From Natrinema salinisoli (GTDB lineage Archaea > Halobacteriota > Halobacteria > Halobacteriales > Natrialbaceae), in NCBI RefSeq assembly GCF_020405205.1, contig NZ_CP084469.1, forward strand, positions 3,720,001 to 3,784,000: a stretch of 64,000 nucleotides of DNA, in the 5' to 3' direction. How positions within the stretch are numbered: position 1 is the stretch's first letter; every line of letters begins with the position of its first letter. The notes under the pieces were generated by a model, which worked only from the letters and a program-made list of their open reading frames with translations, was not told the DNA's origin and searched no databases. Position numbers and translations under genes: made by a program. Shown piece after piece: positions 43,384 through 53,715 of the stretch.

Positions 43384-46300
43384 TCAGCGGGTCCGCTCTT
43401 CGCCGCCGAACTCGCGGCGAACTCGCGCTCGCTCGTCACCGGTCACTCCGTAGCAGTCGAACACGCGATCCGCGATCCGCTCGTCGATCGTCGCGATCCG
43501 CTCGTCCAGCGCCGCGGCACGAGCGCGCTCCTCCTCGAACTCCCGGAGGCCGTCCGCGACGTCTGCGAGCCGCGGCAGCGTGATGGCGGCGACGCGCTCG
43601 AGCGGCGAGGTCGTCTTCGTCGCGGATTTCCTGAAGTCGGCGAACCCGCGTCCCCTGTCGACGGCGGCGGGAACGAACGCCTCGAGGAGGGCCCGTCGCT
43701 CCTCGTCGACGGGTGCGAGTTCGAGTGCCGGAATCGGCTCGGTCTCCGCGTACCCCCACCGATCGGTCTCGCGTGACGCCTCGTCCGGTTTGTATCGAAC
43801 GGTCGCCGACACGACGACCGACGATCCCTCCGTCGTCACGTCGACGGCACCGATTCGGAGGTCGGGCCACTCCGCGGTCATCGCCGTGAGCTTGGTCGTC
43901 GCAACCCCCGCAGCCCGGTGACAGCCGGCGAGATCGCCCAGCGCTTCGCCGTCGTCGTACTGGCCCAGGTGCTCGAGGACGTCCGGCGAGATCCCCGATC
44001 GCTCGCTCGTGAGCGCCAGCCGGTCGTCGACCGCGTCGACGAGCGCCGGATCCGGCCCCTCATCGAGTGCAATCGGAAACGCGTCGAACGTCGACTGGTT
44101 GATCTGCGGGAACACGGATCGGTACGCGGCGCGGGTGTAGTGGTGGTAGCAGTTCAGGAGCGGCGAGTTCAACACCCCGAGCAGGTGTTTGAGCTCGTCG
44201 CTCGAGTCCGAGTCAGCGCGGACGGTGTATGCCGACTTGATCGTCGCGCGGTCCGCATCGTCGTAGGTCCCGACGAGCGAGTCGCTGGTCTGCCTGAAGA
44301 CGAGCTTCGGGCTCCGATAGATCTCCTCCCGTTTCGCCACGTCTTCCGGCCGGATATAGCGGATCGCGTCGTCCTCGAGCCCGTATCGATGCACTGCACC
44401 CCCGGGAACGATCGGTCGGCTATCCGGCCCCCCGCTCGACGCCAGACACGCGTCCCGTTTGCCGATCTCTTCGCCGCGCGAGACGGTGGCGAACGCCTCG
44501 AGCGGGGGGTGTCGATCGACGGTTTCGATGATCGATCGCACCGCTTCGTCGAGGGAGAGCAGGAACCGCGTCGCGTCCCGCTCCTCGAAGACGTGCTCGG
44601 GAATCCGATCGTACGCCAGTGACGACAAGCTCGATCGATCAGACGCATCGGCACAGCGTATTTCGCCCGCAGTATCGGCACTGATACAGACGACGGCACC
44701 CGTTTCGACGCCGGGAAACGCCGTTCCGATCCGGACGAGCCGCGAGAGCGGCGTCTCACCGAGCACGAACTCCCGGATCGGTTCGTTCTGTTCCCGGACG
44801 AGGATCGAATCGGGAACGACGACCCCGACGCGGCCGTCGCGCGACTGCCGAACGGCCTGTTCGTAGAAGGCGACGTAGAGGTCGAACTGCTCCCGGGTCG
44901 TCTCGAACGCGTCCGCGAGATAGGACCGAAGGCGCGAGTCGATACTCGCGCTACAGCCGGTACGGCCCGCCGTCGCGACCCAGGGCGGGTTCCCGACGAC
45001 GGCGTCGAATCCGGCCGACCCGCTCGCCCCCGAGCCGTCGAGTATTTCGGGGAACTCCAGCGGCCAGTGGAAGTACCCCTCGTCGTCGGCCCGCTGCTGG
45101 GCGTCGTCGAACCACTCTTCTCGAGCGAGCCGGTCCCACGCGTCCGCATCGTCCACTGCGGCTGCCATGCGTTCGAACGCGTCGTCGGGCACCCCGTCCA
45201 GCCCGAACTCGAGCGCCGTTCGGACGTTCGCCATCGCCTCGAGCCGCCGATAGCGCTGGCGCTGGCCTCCCCGGACCGCCGCGGGTCCTCCCTCGAACTC
45301 CCCTCGACTCGCGGTCTCCGATCCTGTTCCGGTCGCGTCTCCGTCCGGATCGCGGGTCGCCGGTACCAGCTCGTCGATCGCCTCGCGGTCGCAGCCGACG
45401 AGCGCGTTCCCGGATTGCAGGTGGTGGCCGAGCGACTCCGGCGGCCGCTCGGCCGGCAGCGTTCGGAGCCACAGCGACAGTCTCGCGAGTTCGACGGCGA
45501 TCGGGTCGCAGTCGACGCCGTACAGACACCGCTCGGCGACCCGCCGGCGCGCCCAGTGGATGTCGCGCGACGTCTCGATCGTCGACGGCCCCGCTCGAGT
45601 CGCCTGCCTCGCTTGCGCATCGAGGACCTCGCACGCGAGATACTCGACGACACGGGTCAGGAAGTGGCCACACCCCATCGCGGGGTCGAGGACGTTCAGA
45701 TCGAACACGTTCCGGGCGAACGCCGCGGCGAACTCCCGGTCGCTTCGGGTCGCTCGGACGTCCTCGCGAATCTCGGTCACCAGGGGCTCGAGCGTGTGCT
45801 CGACGATGTAGTCGACGACGGACGCCGGCGTGTAGTACGACCCCGTGGTCTTCCGTTCGCCGCGTTCCGTCGTCAGGGAGACGCCGGCGGCGTCCACCAC
45901 CTCCTCGACGGCGTCGACGCCGCTCGGCGCTCCCCCGTCTTCCAGTGCCGATGGCTCGTCGGCGACGGTGAGCGTACGCTCGAGCAGTCCCTCGTAGAGA
46001 TCGCCGAGCTGGCGCGCGTCGAGCGAGGAGTAGTCGACGAACGGTCGGTCCCTCGCGGCGTCGCCGTCGGTCGGGGTCGGCCGCCGAGCCAGGCGGTCGA
46101 TCGCGGTTGCCAGGAAGGCGTCGCCGATCGCGTGGGTGGCGAGGAATTGCAGCTCTCGACGCGCGTCGTCGTCGGGTGCAGTGTCGAACAGCCAGCCGCT
46201 GTTCGTCGGGAGAGCCCCGTTCGTATCGGACGTGTCCGGCGTCCGTTTCCCGTCGATGCGCTCGAACAGATCCTCGAGCCGCGTCTGGAGGTCGTCGGTA

Positions 46301-47226
46301 TCGAGGCGGTACGCCGGCTCCGACCCGTCGAGTTCCGTCGCGATTTCGCGTTTCAGCGAGTGGAGGCCGTCCGCTCGCTCGTCCCGGTCGGTGGTCCCCG
46401 CGAGCGAGTCGATCTCGCGCTCGGCGGCGAAACCGAACAGTAGCCGGTACAGGTAAACGCGGGAACTCCGGGACAGCAATTCGAGCGTCTCCTCGTCGGG
46501 CTCGTCGTCGAGGCCGTTGTCCGGGTGTCGACGGAACCCCTCGGCGAGCACCGCGAGCGCGTCGGCGGCGGTTTCCTCGAGGTCCGCGGCGAGTTCCTCC
46601 GCGAAAGTCTCGGTCTCGCTGGCGACCTCGTCGCAAAAGCACGTCCCGTTCGCGTCGTCGAGAAACGCCTCGCGGCGAAAGAAACAGTAGAAGTATTTGA
46701 ACGCCTCGCGGTCGCCGTGCTCCAGCACGCCCGGAAGGTCGATCTCGTAGTAGGCGTCCGGACGGTGGGTCCCCGACGCGCGATAGAGACGCCATCGCCG
46801 TCCGTTCGCGAGCACTGCCCATCGGGCGGGCGTTTCCCGCAGGAACTCGTGGATTCGGTAATCGGGGACCCGGAACCCGCAATCGGCCGCATCTCGACCG
46901 GGCGTGTCGGGCGTGTGATCCCATTCCCCGACGGGAGCGACTGCGACCGGATCCGTCTCGCAGCCGCCGTCCGTTTCTCCCCGGTCGGCTTCCGTGACCG
47001 GCATATTCAGCGCTCGAGCGACCCCTCGGACGACCGACTCGTCTCGAGCGACGTCGGTCCGATTCGACGTCGCGTTCCGCTCCCAGCAAGCGCTGACGGC
47101 GTCGTGGGTCTCACGGAGGTCGGCCGCGTCGATCGCGTTCCACGCGGTCGTCTCGGGGAGGACGTCCTCGAGATAGCGCGTCGAGAACAGGCCGCGGTCG
47201 GTGCGGTACGGAGGCGTGTGCTGCAT
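43384..47226 (-). CDS. type IIG-like restriction-modification protein (Eco57I-class methylase)
   Basis: A 1280-residue stand-alone protein. The N-terminal part carries the FRVPDYRIHEFLRETPARW and WAVLANGRRWRLYR blocks shared by Eco57I-class and BREX PglX-like enzymes. The N6-adenine methylase core shows SYYTPASVVDYIVEH, motif I DPAMGCGHFL at about residue 511 and motif IV NPPW at about 745. The C-terminal half holds a TaqI-like specificity region (RYIRPEDVAKREEIYRSPKLVFRQ) and a coiled end. I do not see a confident PD-(D/E)XK nuclease, so it may modify only. No BREX or DISARM partner gene is adjacent. The ATG at 47226 starts the conserved part; a GTG at 47358 adds 44 residues. Confidence 0.85.
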   Translation of the reverse strand: MQHTPPYRTDRGLFSTRYLEDVLPETTAWNAIDAADLRETHDAVSACWERNATSNRTDVARDESVVRGVARALNMPVTEADRGETDGGCETDPVAVAPVGEWDHTPDTPGRDAADCGFRVPDYRIHEFLRETPARWAVLANGRRWRLYRASGTHRPDAYYEIDLPGVLEHGDREAFKYFYCFFRREAFLDDANGTCFCDEVASETETFAEELAADLEETAADALAVLAEGFRRHPDNGLDDEPDEETLELLSRSSRVYLYRLLFGFAAEREIDSLAGTTDRDERADGLHSLKREIATELDGSEPAYRLDTDDLQTRLEDLFERIDGKRTPDTSDTNGALPTNSGWLFDTAPDDDARRELQFLATHAIGDAFLATAIDRLARRPTPTDGDAARDRPFVDYSSLDARQLGDLYEGLLERTLTVADEPSALEDGGAPSGVDAVEEVVDAAGVSLTTERGERKTTGSYYTPASVVDYIVEHTLEPLVTEIREDVRATRSDREFAAAFARNVFDLNVLDPAMGCGHFLTRVVEYLACEVLDAQARQATRAGPSTIETSRDIHWARRRVAERCLYGVDCDPIAVELARLSLWLRTLPAERPPESLGHHLQSGNALVGCDREAIDELVPATRDPDGDATGTGSETASRGEFEGGPAAVRGGQRQRYRRLEAMANVRTALEFGLDGVPDDAFERMAAAVDDADAWDRLAREEWFDDAQQRADDEGYFHWPLEFPEILDGSGASGSAGFDAVVGNPPWVATAGRTGCSASIDSRLRSYLADAFETTREQFDLYVAFYEQAVRQSRDGRVGVVVPDSILVREQNEPIREFVLGETPLSRLVRIGTAFPGVETGAVVCISADTAGEIRCADASDRSSLSSLAYDRIPEHVFEERDATRFLLSLDEAVRSIIETVDRHPPLEAFATVSRGEEIGKRDACLASSGGPDSRPIVPGGAVHRYGLEDDAIRYIRPEDVAKREEIYRSPKLVFRQTSDSLVGTYDDADRATIKSAYTVRADSDSSDELKHLLGVLNSPLLNCYHHYTRAAYRSVFPQINQSTFDAFPIALDEGPDPALVDAVDDRLALTSERSGISPDVLEHLGQYDDGEALGDLAGCHRAAGVATTKLTAMTAEWPDLRIGAVDVTTEGSSVVVSATVRYKPDEASRETDRWGYAETEPIPALELAPVDEERRALLEAFVPAAVDRGRGFADFRKSATKTTSPLERVAAITLPRLADVADGLREFEEERARAAALDERIATIDERIADRVFDCYGVTGDERARVRREFGGEERTR

Positions 47227-47544
47227 GAGAGTCGGGACGGAGGTCGGGTCGCCGACGGCGTCGCCGCCGCCATCGTTCGCGACGGTAGCGCCGGCGACGA
47301 CCGGGGTATCGGTCCTCGCCTTTCTTTCGGTGTACGCTGCTACGACGGAAAACCACACAGGGACGTATAATAGTTACCCAGACCGCCCGTAGGTGTTCGC
47401 TGCGTCGCAGTCGTCCGACCGGGGGCTCGGGACCTGGGTGGGATCGGTCCTCCGGGAGGCTGAAGCGGACACGTGACCGGTCCTGACAGTCCGGATCGCC
47501 GTCGGACCCGAAGACACTTCCAGCGTCTGGGTGATGACGCACGT

Positions 47545-49973: not shown

Positions 49974-50144
49974 CGCGTTCGCCGGCCTCGTTCTTGGGCG
50001 TGGTGCCTAACTACTCCGGCCGATGTGACCGTACTGATTCCCCGCTCTACGCTCTCGTACGCGTACATGTCCATAACTGAGAACGACATTGACCACGCAA
50101 GTGTCGGCTGACGGCTTATGCATCTCGACAACGATTAGGTCTGT

Positions 50145-50450
50145 ATGACAGATCGTCAACCGGTGACTCGTCGGCGAGTAGTGCAGCTAACAGGTGTCGC
50201 GGCTTCGACCGCCCTCGTTGCCGGCTGTGGTGGTCCGGGTGGAAATGGCGGAAACGACACCGAGGAAGACGACGAAACCGAAGCCGAAGAGGGAACCGGA
50301 AACGGTCAAGATATCGAAGACGAGCCGGTCGATAACGAGACCAACGAGACCAACGAGACCGGAATGAACGAGACGAACGAGACGAACGAGACCAACGAGA
50401 CCGGAATGAACGAGACGAACGAAACCAACGCGACCAACGAATCCGAGTAA
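50145..50450 (+). CDS. short Tat lipoprotein with tandem N-glycosylation sequons
   Basis: A 101-residue surface lipoprotein. The N-terminus TRRRVVQLTGVAAS carries consecutive arginines and a hydrophobic stretch ending in the lipobox AGC (Cys28). After an acidic spacer the last third consists of NET triplets in blocks (NETNETNETG, MNETNETNETNETG, MNETNETNATNES), giving about a dozen back-to-back N-x-T/S sequons. There is no folded domain; the mature product is probably a lipid-anchored, densely glycosylated spike. The repeated DNA has a 42-base period (50338-50443), so the number of units may vary between strains. Confidence 0.75.
   Translation: MTDRQPVTRRRVVQLTGVAASTALVAGCGGPGGNGGNDTEEDDETEAEEGTGNGQDIEDEPVDNETNETNETGMNETNETNETNETGMNETNETNATNESE
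50338..50443 (+). repeat. 42-base period repeat inside the sequon lipoprotein gene
   Basis: The unit encoding NET blocks plus GM recurs with a 42-base offset (for example CCGGAATGAACGAGACGAAC at 50359 and at 50401). It lies in frame and can expand or contract without breaking the gene. Confidence 0.75.
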
Positions 50451-50602: not shown

Positions 50603-51331
50603 ATGACCGACGGACTCGAGACGGAGGTCGAGGAGATGGGCGACGTCGCCGAGCGACGGGACGAACTGGCGGCCCGCGTTCGAACCCACGCCGGCGAAAT
50701 CGCGCGGGAACTCGCCGTCTTTCAGGGCGGCGACTACGGTCAGGAGACGTTCAATACGGACGGCGGCAGCTGGACGCTCAAATACGAGGCCGGCGACGTC
50801 CAGTACCTCCGATTCGACCCGAAATCGGGCTCGGAGACGTACGTCGTCTCGAGCAAGCAGCCGCCGGAACCCGAGGCCCTCGAGACGGCGATGGCCGACT
50901 ACGGGGCGTTCGTCGAGGCCTACAACGAGTACGTCCGCTCGTTCGAGGGGATGCTCGCGGACGTCTCCGGCGAGTTCCCCGCGGTCGAATCGACGGCGGA
51001 ACTGGTCGCCGAGCGGGATCGCATCGTCGAGCGGATCCGCGACGTCTGTAATGCGATGGCGAGCCAGCTCCACCGCTACGACGGGGACTACGGCACCTAC
51101 GCGACGACGATCTCGGGGACCCGCTGGGAGCTGAAGTGGGAGGAAGACCTCGCCTCCTACCTGCGTGTCGGCGGCTCGGACGGCGTCTACCTGCTCTCGC
51201 AGTACGGGCCGCCCGCAGCCCCTGAAGTCCGCCGGCTCGCCGACGACGTGCCCGCGTTCGTCGCCGACTTCAACGCCCACGTCGCCGACCTCGAGGCCGA
51301 CCTCGCGGAGATCAGCTTCGAGGACGTCTAG
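50603..51331 (+). CDS. conserved haloarchaeal protein with internal duplication
   Basis: A 242-residue soluble protein of two similar halves. Each has a helical lead, then GGDYGQETFNTDGGSWTLKYE (about residue 42) or DGDYGTYATTISGTRWELKWE (about residue 158), a beta segment ending YVVSSKQPP or YLLSQYGPP, and a closing helix with FVEAYNEYV or FVADFNAHV. The repeat suggests a pseudo-dimer. No family of known function recognised. No signal peptide. ATG at 50603; single gene. Confidence 0.75.
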   Translation: MTDGLETEVEEMGDVAERRDELAARVRTHAGEIARELAVFQGGDYGQETFNTDGGSWTLKYEAGDVQYLRFDPKSGSETYVVSSKQPPEPEALETAMADYGAFVEAYNEYVRSFEGMLADVSGEFPAVESTAELVAERDRIVERIRDVCNAMASQLHRYDGDYGTYATTISGTRWELKWEEDLASYLRVGGSDGVYLLSQYGPPAAPEVRRLADDVPAFVADFNAHVADLEADLAEISFEDV

Positions 51332-52590: not shown

Positions 52591-53715
52591 TCAGCCGAGT
52601 GCGCCGAGTGACGGGGTTTCGTTTTCGCTTTCGTTCTCGGTCACGTTGGCGGTCTCGTTTCCTGCCGGCGGCTCGACCGACTCCTCGAGCGGTTCGCTGT
52701 CACCGACGGTGACGGTGTTCGCCGAGACGTTCTCGATCGTCATCGATCCTGCAGAGAGCGACGGGATCGTCTCGCCCGTCGCCGTCTCGTTTTGCGTCGC
52801 GTTGCCGGCCATCGCCGTTTCGTTCTCGGCGGTCTCGTTCTGGGTTGCGTTCTCGCCCGTCGCCGTTTCGTTTCCGGCGGTTTCGTTCTGCGTCTCGTTC
52901 TCGGCCGTCTGGTTCCCGGCGGCCTGCGTCTCGAGGCTGCCGACGGTCATCGACTCGACCGTAATCTCGTCGACGTCGAACTGTTCGACGGTCAGTTCGT
53001 CGATCTCCTGGGCGCTTTCGTTCTCGGTCGCGTTGGCTCCGCCGTCGCCGCCGTCGCCGCCGACCAGTCCGCCGATGAAGTCGGAGATTCCCGAGAGGAT
53101 TCCCCCGCCGTCTTCGTCGACGGTCAGATCGTTGATCGTCATCCGCTCGGTGCTCATCGACTCGATTGTCAGGTTCTGGACCGTGACGTTGTCGCTCCCT
53201 TCGCCGATCACTTGAGTGATATTGGCCGACGACTCGTTCTCGCCGTCGGTCGCGTTGGCACCGTCCATACCGCCGCCCGTCTGGAGGTCTTCGATCGAGA
53301 CGTTCTCGAACGCCAGCATCTCGAAGGAGGCGTTCGAAATCAGCACGCCCTGTGAGGTCTGGTTGTCCGCGGTCTGGTTCCCATCCGACTGGTTGTCCGC
53401 AGTTTGGTTCGCCTCGGACTGGTTGTCCGCGGTCTGATTCCCGTCGCTTTCGTTCAGTTGCTGCAGGAGCTCTTCACCGCCCTGCCCGGCCAGTTGCTGG
53501 ATCTCGAGTTCCTCGATCGTGGCGTTCTCGATCGTGGCGTTCTCGAGTTCCAGCGTGTCGACCTGGACGTTTGCAATCGTTGCGCTCGTCTCGCTCATGT
53601 CTCCGGCGTCGTCGTCCGCGGCTGCCGGTGTGCCACCGACGAGGGCGGGACCCCCCGAGAGCACGACCAGCAACGCGACGAACGCGACACCGAGTGTTCG
53701 CGATTGTGAAGCCAT
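52591..53715 (-). CDS. secreted sequon-rich repetitive protein
   Basis: A 374-residue exported protein with a cleavable Sec signal (VAFVALLVVLSGGPALVGG). The mature part holds about 30 N-x-S/T sequons. Between them, motifs such as ELENATIENATIEELEIQQL, NVSIEDLQ, NVTVQNLTIESMSTERMTIND and TVESMTVGSLE repeat with a five-residue rhythm (xxLxI), which suggests a regular beta solenoid like pentapeptide-repeat proteins. There are two low-complexity stretches of NQT/NET and no membrane anchor at the C-terminus. Probable heavily glycosylated extracellular fibre or matrix protein; inferred from composition. Confidence 0.75.
   Translation of the reverse strand: MASQSRTLGVAFVALLVVLSGGPALVGGTPAAADDDAGDMSETSATIANVQVDTLELENATIENATIEELEIQQLAGQGGEELLQQLNESDGNQTADNQSEANQTADNQSDGNQTADNQTSQGVLISNASFEMLAFENVSIEDLQTGGGMDGANATDGENESSANITQVIGEGSDNVTVQNLTIESMSTERMTINDLTVDEDGGGILSGISDFIGGLVGGDGGDGGANATENESAQEIDELTVEQFDVDEITVESMTVGSLETQAAGNQTAENETQNETAGNETATGENATQNETAENETAMAGNATQNETATGETIPSLSAGSMTIENVSANTVTVGDSEPLEESVEPPAGNETANVTENESENETPSLGALG

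Follow-up and report, generated by a model that had tools for sequence, protein, structure and literature searches.

A predicted lipoprotein of Natrinema with a sequon-array tail that is exchanged for acidic tails in related genera

The 64,000-nucleotide stretch of the Natrinema salinisoli genome analysed here (the window) encodes a small predicted lipoprotein whose tail is packed with N-x-T/S sequons, which raises the question of whether these are acceptor sites for N-glycans or by-products of a polar, repetitive sequence. The features of the locus are collected in Table 1. The translated frame (50145–50450, forward strand) reads MTDRQPVTRRRVVQLTGVAASTALVAGCGGPGGNGGNDTEEDDETEAEEGTGNGQDIEDEPVDNETNETNETGMNETNETNETNETGMNETNETNATNESE. 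Its N-terminus (TRRR...LVAGC) displays, by motif, a twin arginine, a short hydrophobic stretch and a lipobox GC near residue 28. The lipid anchor claimed in the original prediction is supported by this motif and by the Tat lipobox proteins of haloarchaea described in the literature (PMC2945643), in which a twin-arginine signal is likewise followed by a lipobox cysteine; the window protein differs from them in having no folded domain past the predicted anchor, its mature part consisting of a motif and the repeat array. The tail is of low complexity and free of Lys and Arg, and searches of Pfam, NCBIfam and PDB with the 101-residue protein gave no match.

Table 1. Features of the sequon-rich lipoprotein locus (positions in the window).
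Feature	Position	Strand	Remarks
CACGCA element	50094..50099	+	~51 nt upstream of start codon; at -50 to -53 in 26/28 Natrinema orthologs
TATA-like box GCTTAT	50114..50119	+	at -31; at -30 to -33 in 28/28 Natrinema orthologs
Sequon-rich lipoprotein CDS	50145..50450	+	ATG start, 101 aa
Predicted Tat-type signal peptide, RRR and lipobox LVAG/C	50145..50225	+	from sequence; kept in orthologs
Cys28, predicted lipid attachment	50226-50228	+	from lipobox position
EEGTGNGQD motif	50286..50312	+	sole strongly conserved mature part across genera
Sequon array, residues 64-100	50334..50444	+	11 sequons (nine NET, one NAT, one NES) on 42-bp in-frame repeat
NET374, neighbouring secreted protein	52591..53715	-	374 aa, 32 sequons, signal-like N-terminus; conserved synteny

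About a dozen sites with almost no spacing had been predicted, and we counted 12 sequons (N37, 64, 67, 70, 75, 78, 81, 84, 89, 92, 95 and 98; one NDT, nine NET, one NAT and one NES), 11 of them within residues 64–100, where the N-to-N steps are 3 or 5 residues. The in-frame repeat of 42 bases, also part of that prediction, was confirmed by TRF (50334–50440, 2.5 copies at 93% match) and had the top score in the window (193). Against a background sample of 464 kb comprising 310 ORFs of the genome, the lipoprotein contained the densest 50-residue cluster of sequons (11), followed by NET374 (9) and then by a cluster of 5.

The frame is a real gene, judging from its syntenic orthologs (E ≤ 1e-9) in 28 of 29 Natrinema genomes and from a conserved promoter-like element. 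The orthologs are flanked, in constant order, by PNPOx, a coiled-coil-like protein, PadR, NUDIX, NET374 and an HTH protein; they carry 5–16 sequons each, with 3 as the commonest N-to-N spacing. The position of the TATA-like box, ~31 nt before the ATG, fits a leaderless haloarchaeal transcript, and the CACGCA element, some ortholog copies of which have one change, is a possible regulatory site. When 392 genomes of the order were searched for the EEGTGNGQ motif, lipobox proteins were confined to the family Natrialbaceae; the five matches outside it, in ~300 genomes, had no lipobox ahead (0/5) and were taken as chance. Immediately downstream (50603–51331, forward strand), a conserved protein of 242 residues, which matches the DUF7310 coiled coil weakly and below the cut-off, adjoins the lipoprotein in all Natrinema examined. 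Elsewhere in the window, 43384–47358 (reverse strand) encodes a large protein that seems to contain the core of an N6-adenine methyltransferase (NPPW) and may be a type IIG restriction-modification enzyme; it was detected at the syntenic place in only some relatives.

The array had further been predicted to change length by slippage. Between species this was supported: the mature part ranges from 52 to 93 residues among the Natrinema orthologs, all arrays compared are distinct (N. pallidum, L079/L038, was left out because an N interrupts the array in the draft assembly), and most close pairs are separated by in-frame gaps. The closest relative, N. salsiterrestre, has an identical N-terminal part and flanking proteins that are mostly 94–100% identical; its repeat unit, GMNETEGNET, differs from that of the window array. 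No length change was seen in the close trio N. limicola, N. hispanicum and G019 (L072–L074), whose members differ by substitutions only. As far as these sequences tell, array length evolves between species.

Could the sequons simply follow from the composition of the tail? Shuffling the mature sequence of the window protein gave a mean of 2.6 sequons, and 12 were reached in 0 of 5000 shuffles. Shuffled mature Natrinema orthologs yielded 1–3 sequons versus the 5–16 observed, and the observed count was matched in 0 of 5000 shuffles for 26 of the 28. Across the genus, N-[EDAM] occurred 303 times and was followed at the third position by T or S in 298 of them (253 T, 45 S) and by another residue in five, whereas the middle residue is variable (E, D, A, M, N, T, G or S), and the stretches that separate the sequons (GM, G, E, EM, DM, EG) vary freely. 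Codon changes in ten close pairs comprised 58 synonymous (770 opportunities), 19 sequon-preserving (1058) and 6 sequon-breaking ones (1629); relative to the synonymous rate, this corresponds to 0.049 for sequon-breaking and 0.24 for sequon-preserving changes, compared with 0.35 for other mature codons (sequon-breaking versus sequon-preserving, p = 0.0003), in a test that uses repeat alignments, which favour matches, and pairs that are partly non-independent.

The strongest test is a control of residue order. DNA encoding (NET)3 was found in 10 of 80 genomes and DNA encoding (NTE)3, of identical composition, in none of the 80. Within Natrinema, (NET)3 was restricted to the lipoprotein gene and one site in G012, ~2.6 kb off, at the place of the neighbour. 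Pairs of NET within 30 nt number 20–73 per Natrinema genome; 0–1 NTE pairs were counted in each tested Natrinema, and other genomes had no more than 2. Because shuffles give 1–3 sequons, the NTE order is near absent and the rate of sequon-breaking changes is ~0.05 of the synonymous one, the sequons go beyond composition, and by these sequence comparisons a composition effect does not account for them. The same order control bears on the alternative that the tail is a plain acidic, hydrophilic spacer of a halophile, with no glycan and with sequons that are incidental to the favoured polar residues N, E and T. Such a spacer would suit the Glu present in every NET unit and the pure Asp/Glu tails, free of sequons, in most other genera, where the rest of the protein is kept; we nevertheless consider it unlikely, given that N-T-E is nearly absent and N-E-T common despite equal composition, and that conservation is stronger at N and T/S than at the middle residue.

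A single PF02516 match (G000:C1:1857651, a 980-residue frame) represents AglB/STT3 in the window genome. With selection on sequon positions 1 and 3, the order control and this one AglB gene, the assumption that the sequons are functional acceptor sites is well supported, though indirectly. AglB/STT3 is present in all genomes tested, those of acidic-tail relatives included, which led us to reject an absence of AglB from sequon-poor lineages; since the acidic-tail relatives also carry AglB, glycosylation of the lipoprotein would be dispensable in the family. The ORF at the AglB position of the window genome (L151:7562–10468; 968 residues) itself has 10 sequons and a sequon-containing tail end (NETAGNESG...DNETT).

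How does the protein compare with known glycoproteins? AglB of Haloferax volcanii glycosylates dozens of exported proteins, for example the Tat lipobox protein HVO_1624, and 19 N-glycan sites have been mapped on HVO_2160 (PMC8241124). The window protein shares with these N-x-S/T sequons (x not Pro) on a predicted exported segment and an AglB gene in the genome; it differs in that glycans were mapped there and sequons are known from sequence here, and zero-spacing sequon arrays are not described in the sections of PMC8241124 consulted. A literature search found no glycoproteomics for any Natrinema. The Sulfolobus thread subunit Saci_0406, also an archaeal surface protein, bears five N-glycans, and because two of them sit on N80 and N83, a spacing of 3 residues can be occupied (PMC9715654). 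Saci_0406 differs from the window protein in belonging to another phylum, in being a folded subunit of a filament, in its glycan and in having no repeat array. Acidic middle residues of sequons are disfavoured in eukaryotes. Human STT3A skips closely spaced NXS sites and uses NXT better (PMC4750078). By analogy with this skipping, and considering steric limits, full occupancy is doubtful and some of the sites three residues apart may stay vacant; the Natrinema arrays are mostly NXT (253 T versus 45 S), the type better used in PMC4750078.

Outside Natrinema, the picture changes. Most other genera of Natrialbaceae keep the signal and EEGTGNGQD and have a poly-Asp/Glu tail with 0–2 sequons; such tails, here with 0–1 sequons, were seen in Natrialba chahannaoensis and SSL1 and in Natronorubrum, Natronolimnohabitans, Natrarchaeobius, Salinadaptatus and Natronosalvus. 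The lipoprotein has 4–5 sequons in Natrialba aegyptia, N. taiwanensis and Halopiger djelfimassiliensis and 4–7 in genus g51, and in genus g52 (L098) there are 17, placed before the EEGTGNGQ motif, on the opposite side from the Natrinema array. NET374, second-densest in the genome sample and with 91% of its Asn in sequons, has 17–39 sequons in Natrinema, 24 in Halopiger, 11 in one other and 0–2 in most others, turning Asp/Glu-rich in other genera together with the lipoprotein. NET pairs per genome correlate with lipoprotein sequons (rho 0.82 for 67 genomes, 0.84 for 17 genus means); their counts are high in g1, g51, g52, g50 and g40 and low elsewhere, and NET-rich genomes also occur in some other families of the order. 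A concatenated tree of the neighbouring proteins, with modest support at several nodes, placed Natrinema, g51 and Halopiger apart, so that the sequon-rich state was probably gained or lost more than once and the switch apparently occurred in at least three lineages. Judged by these comparisons, sequon richness is not a property of the whole lipoprotein family and the switch is genome-wide, two points absent from the first reading; the repeated exchange of sequon arrays and acidic tails is a more interesting result than the array itself. In another Natrialbaceae genus, a secreted protein (L084, genome G067) has a C-terminal hydrophobic anchor preceded by NETNETNETNET, by its sequence an independent zero-spacing array.

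A genome-wide change of composition, such as a loss of Asn and Thr from exported disordered segments of soda-lake alkaliphiles, would say little about the lipoprotein itself. We regard it as improbable: the lipoprotein is the extreme of its Natrinema genome sample, Natrialba aegyptia and N. taiwanensis are NET-poor (7 and 6 pairs genome-wide) yet have their 4–5 sequons in the lipoprotein, and the genera, as samples, are non-independent, although the rho of 0.82, the parallel switch of NET374 and the 0–1 sequons in seven named alkaliphile-type taxa are on its side. It addresses why lineages differ and is compatible with the explanation that we prefer. These two Natrialba species we take to be neutral; outside Natrinema and Natrarchaeobius, an alkaliphilic or neutral habitat was assumed from the name of the taxon. 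The NET-poor genomes of the neutral Natrialba weaken a clean neutral-versus-alkaline rule. Natrinema has its optimum at pH 6.0–8.2 (PMC8530250) and soda lakes are the source of Natrarchaeobius (PMC9726719); the alkaliphily trend, which is confounded with phylogeny and which neutral Natrialba do not fully fit, is a lead only. A neutral slippage product, in which a NET motif of chance origin and no function was multiplied in repeat-prone DNA, would match the 42-bp tandem repeat and the units and lengths that differ between species, but is very improbable because sequons are kept by different units (NETNETGM, GNMTGNET, NATNETG, NDTNDT), substitutions are mostly synonymous and the codon test disfavours it, the array persists with an open frame in 28 of 29 species, and another genus built its 17-sequon array on the opposite side of the motif (L098).

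We favour a polyanionic, lipid-anchored tail whose charge would be supplied by side chains in one set of lineages and by AglB glycans, together with Glu, in another. The protein would be exported via Tat and lipid-anchored, its mature part forming a disordered, strongly charged tail. N-E-T-type repeats would have been retained in Natrinema as acceptor sites of the AglB oligosaccharyltransferase, and N-glycans would occupy some or all of the 12 sites, so that the protein would form a short, glycosylated brush directly outside the membrane; Asp and Glu side chains would form an equivalent brush in related genera. Uronic acids are present in the best-studied haloarchaeal N-glycan, so the glycan could supply tail charge, with uronic-acid glycans standing in for Asp/Glu in sequon lineages. 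Whole repeat units are gained or lost in frame between species, changing the length of the array. We consider this combination of a Tat-exported charged tail, sequons as AglB sites in Natrinema, Asp/Glu in relatives and in-frame length change probably correct; the sequences themselves establish the gene and its conservation, the promoter-like element, selection on sequon positions, the swap with acidic tails and the change in length, and export, lipidation, glycosylation and function as a brush are what we infer within it.

Sequon array and plain acidic tail, set side by side, suggest two ways to one charged brush. The wider proposal that haloarchaea make one lipid-anchored polyanionic brush by two interchangeable chemistries (Asp/Glu side chains, or uronic-acid N-glycans carried by back-to-back sequons), repeatedly switched across many exported proteins and possibly with habitat pH, is tentative and rather doubtful. 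If true, AglB of the sequon lineages must modify Asn just three residues apart, in bulk. N-glycosylation sites have usually been studied singly and in folded proteins, and here the tail is almost wholly sites. The orthologs are natural variants with 0 to 17 sites and make it possible to examine how crowded the sites of an archaeal oligosaccharyltransferase may be and whether acidic residues can give way to glycans in saturated salt.

The EEGTGNGQ motif also occurs in a different setting. In three relatives (L129, L131 and L139), the lipobox and EEGTGNGQ precede a cupredoxin-like domain in which Cys, His and Met appear to be copper ligands; the usual lipoprotein neighbours were sought beside them and none was found. 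The window protein shares lipobox and motif with these halocyanin-like lipoproteins and differs in that its 101 residues gave no Pfam match and contain no cupredoxin domain. Our reading of the three sequences suggests a linker common to the short lipoprotein and the halocyanin-like proteins.
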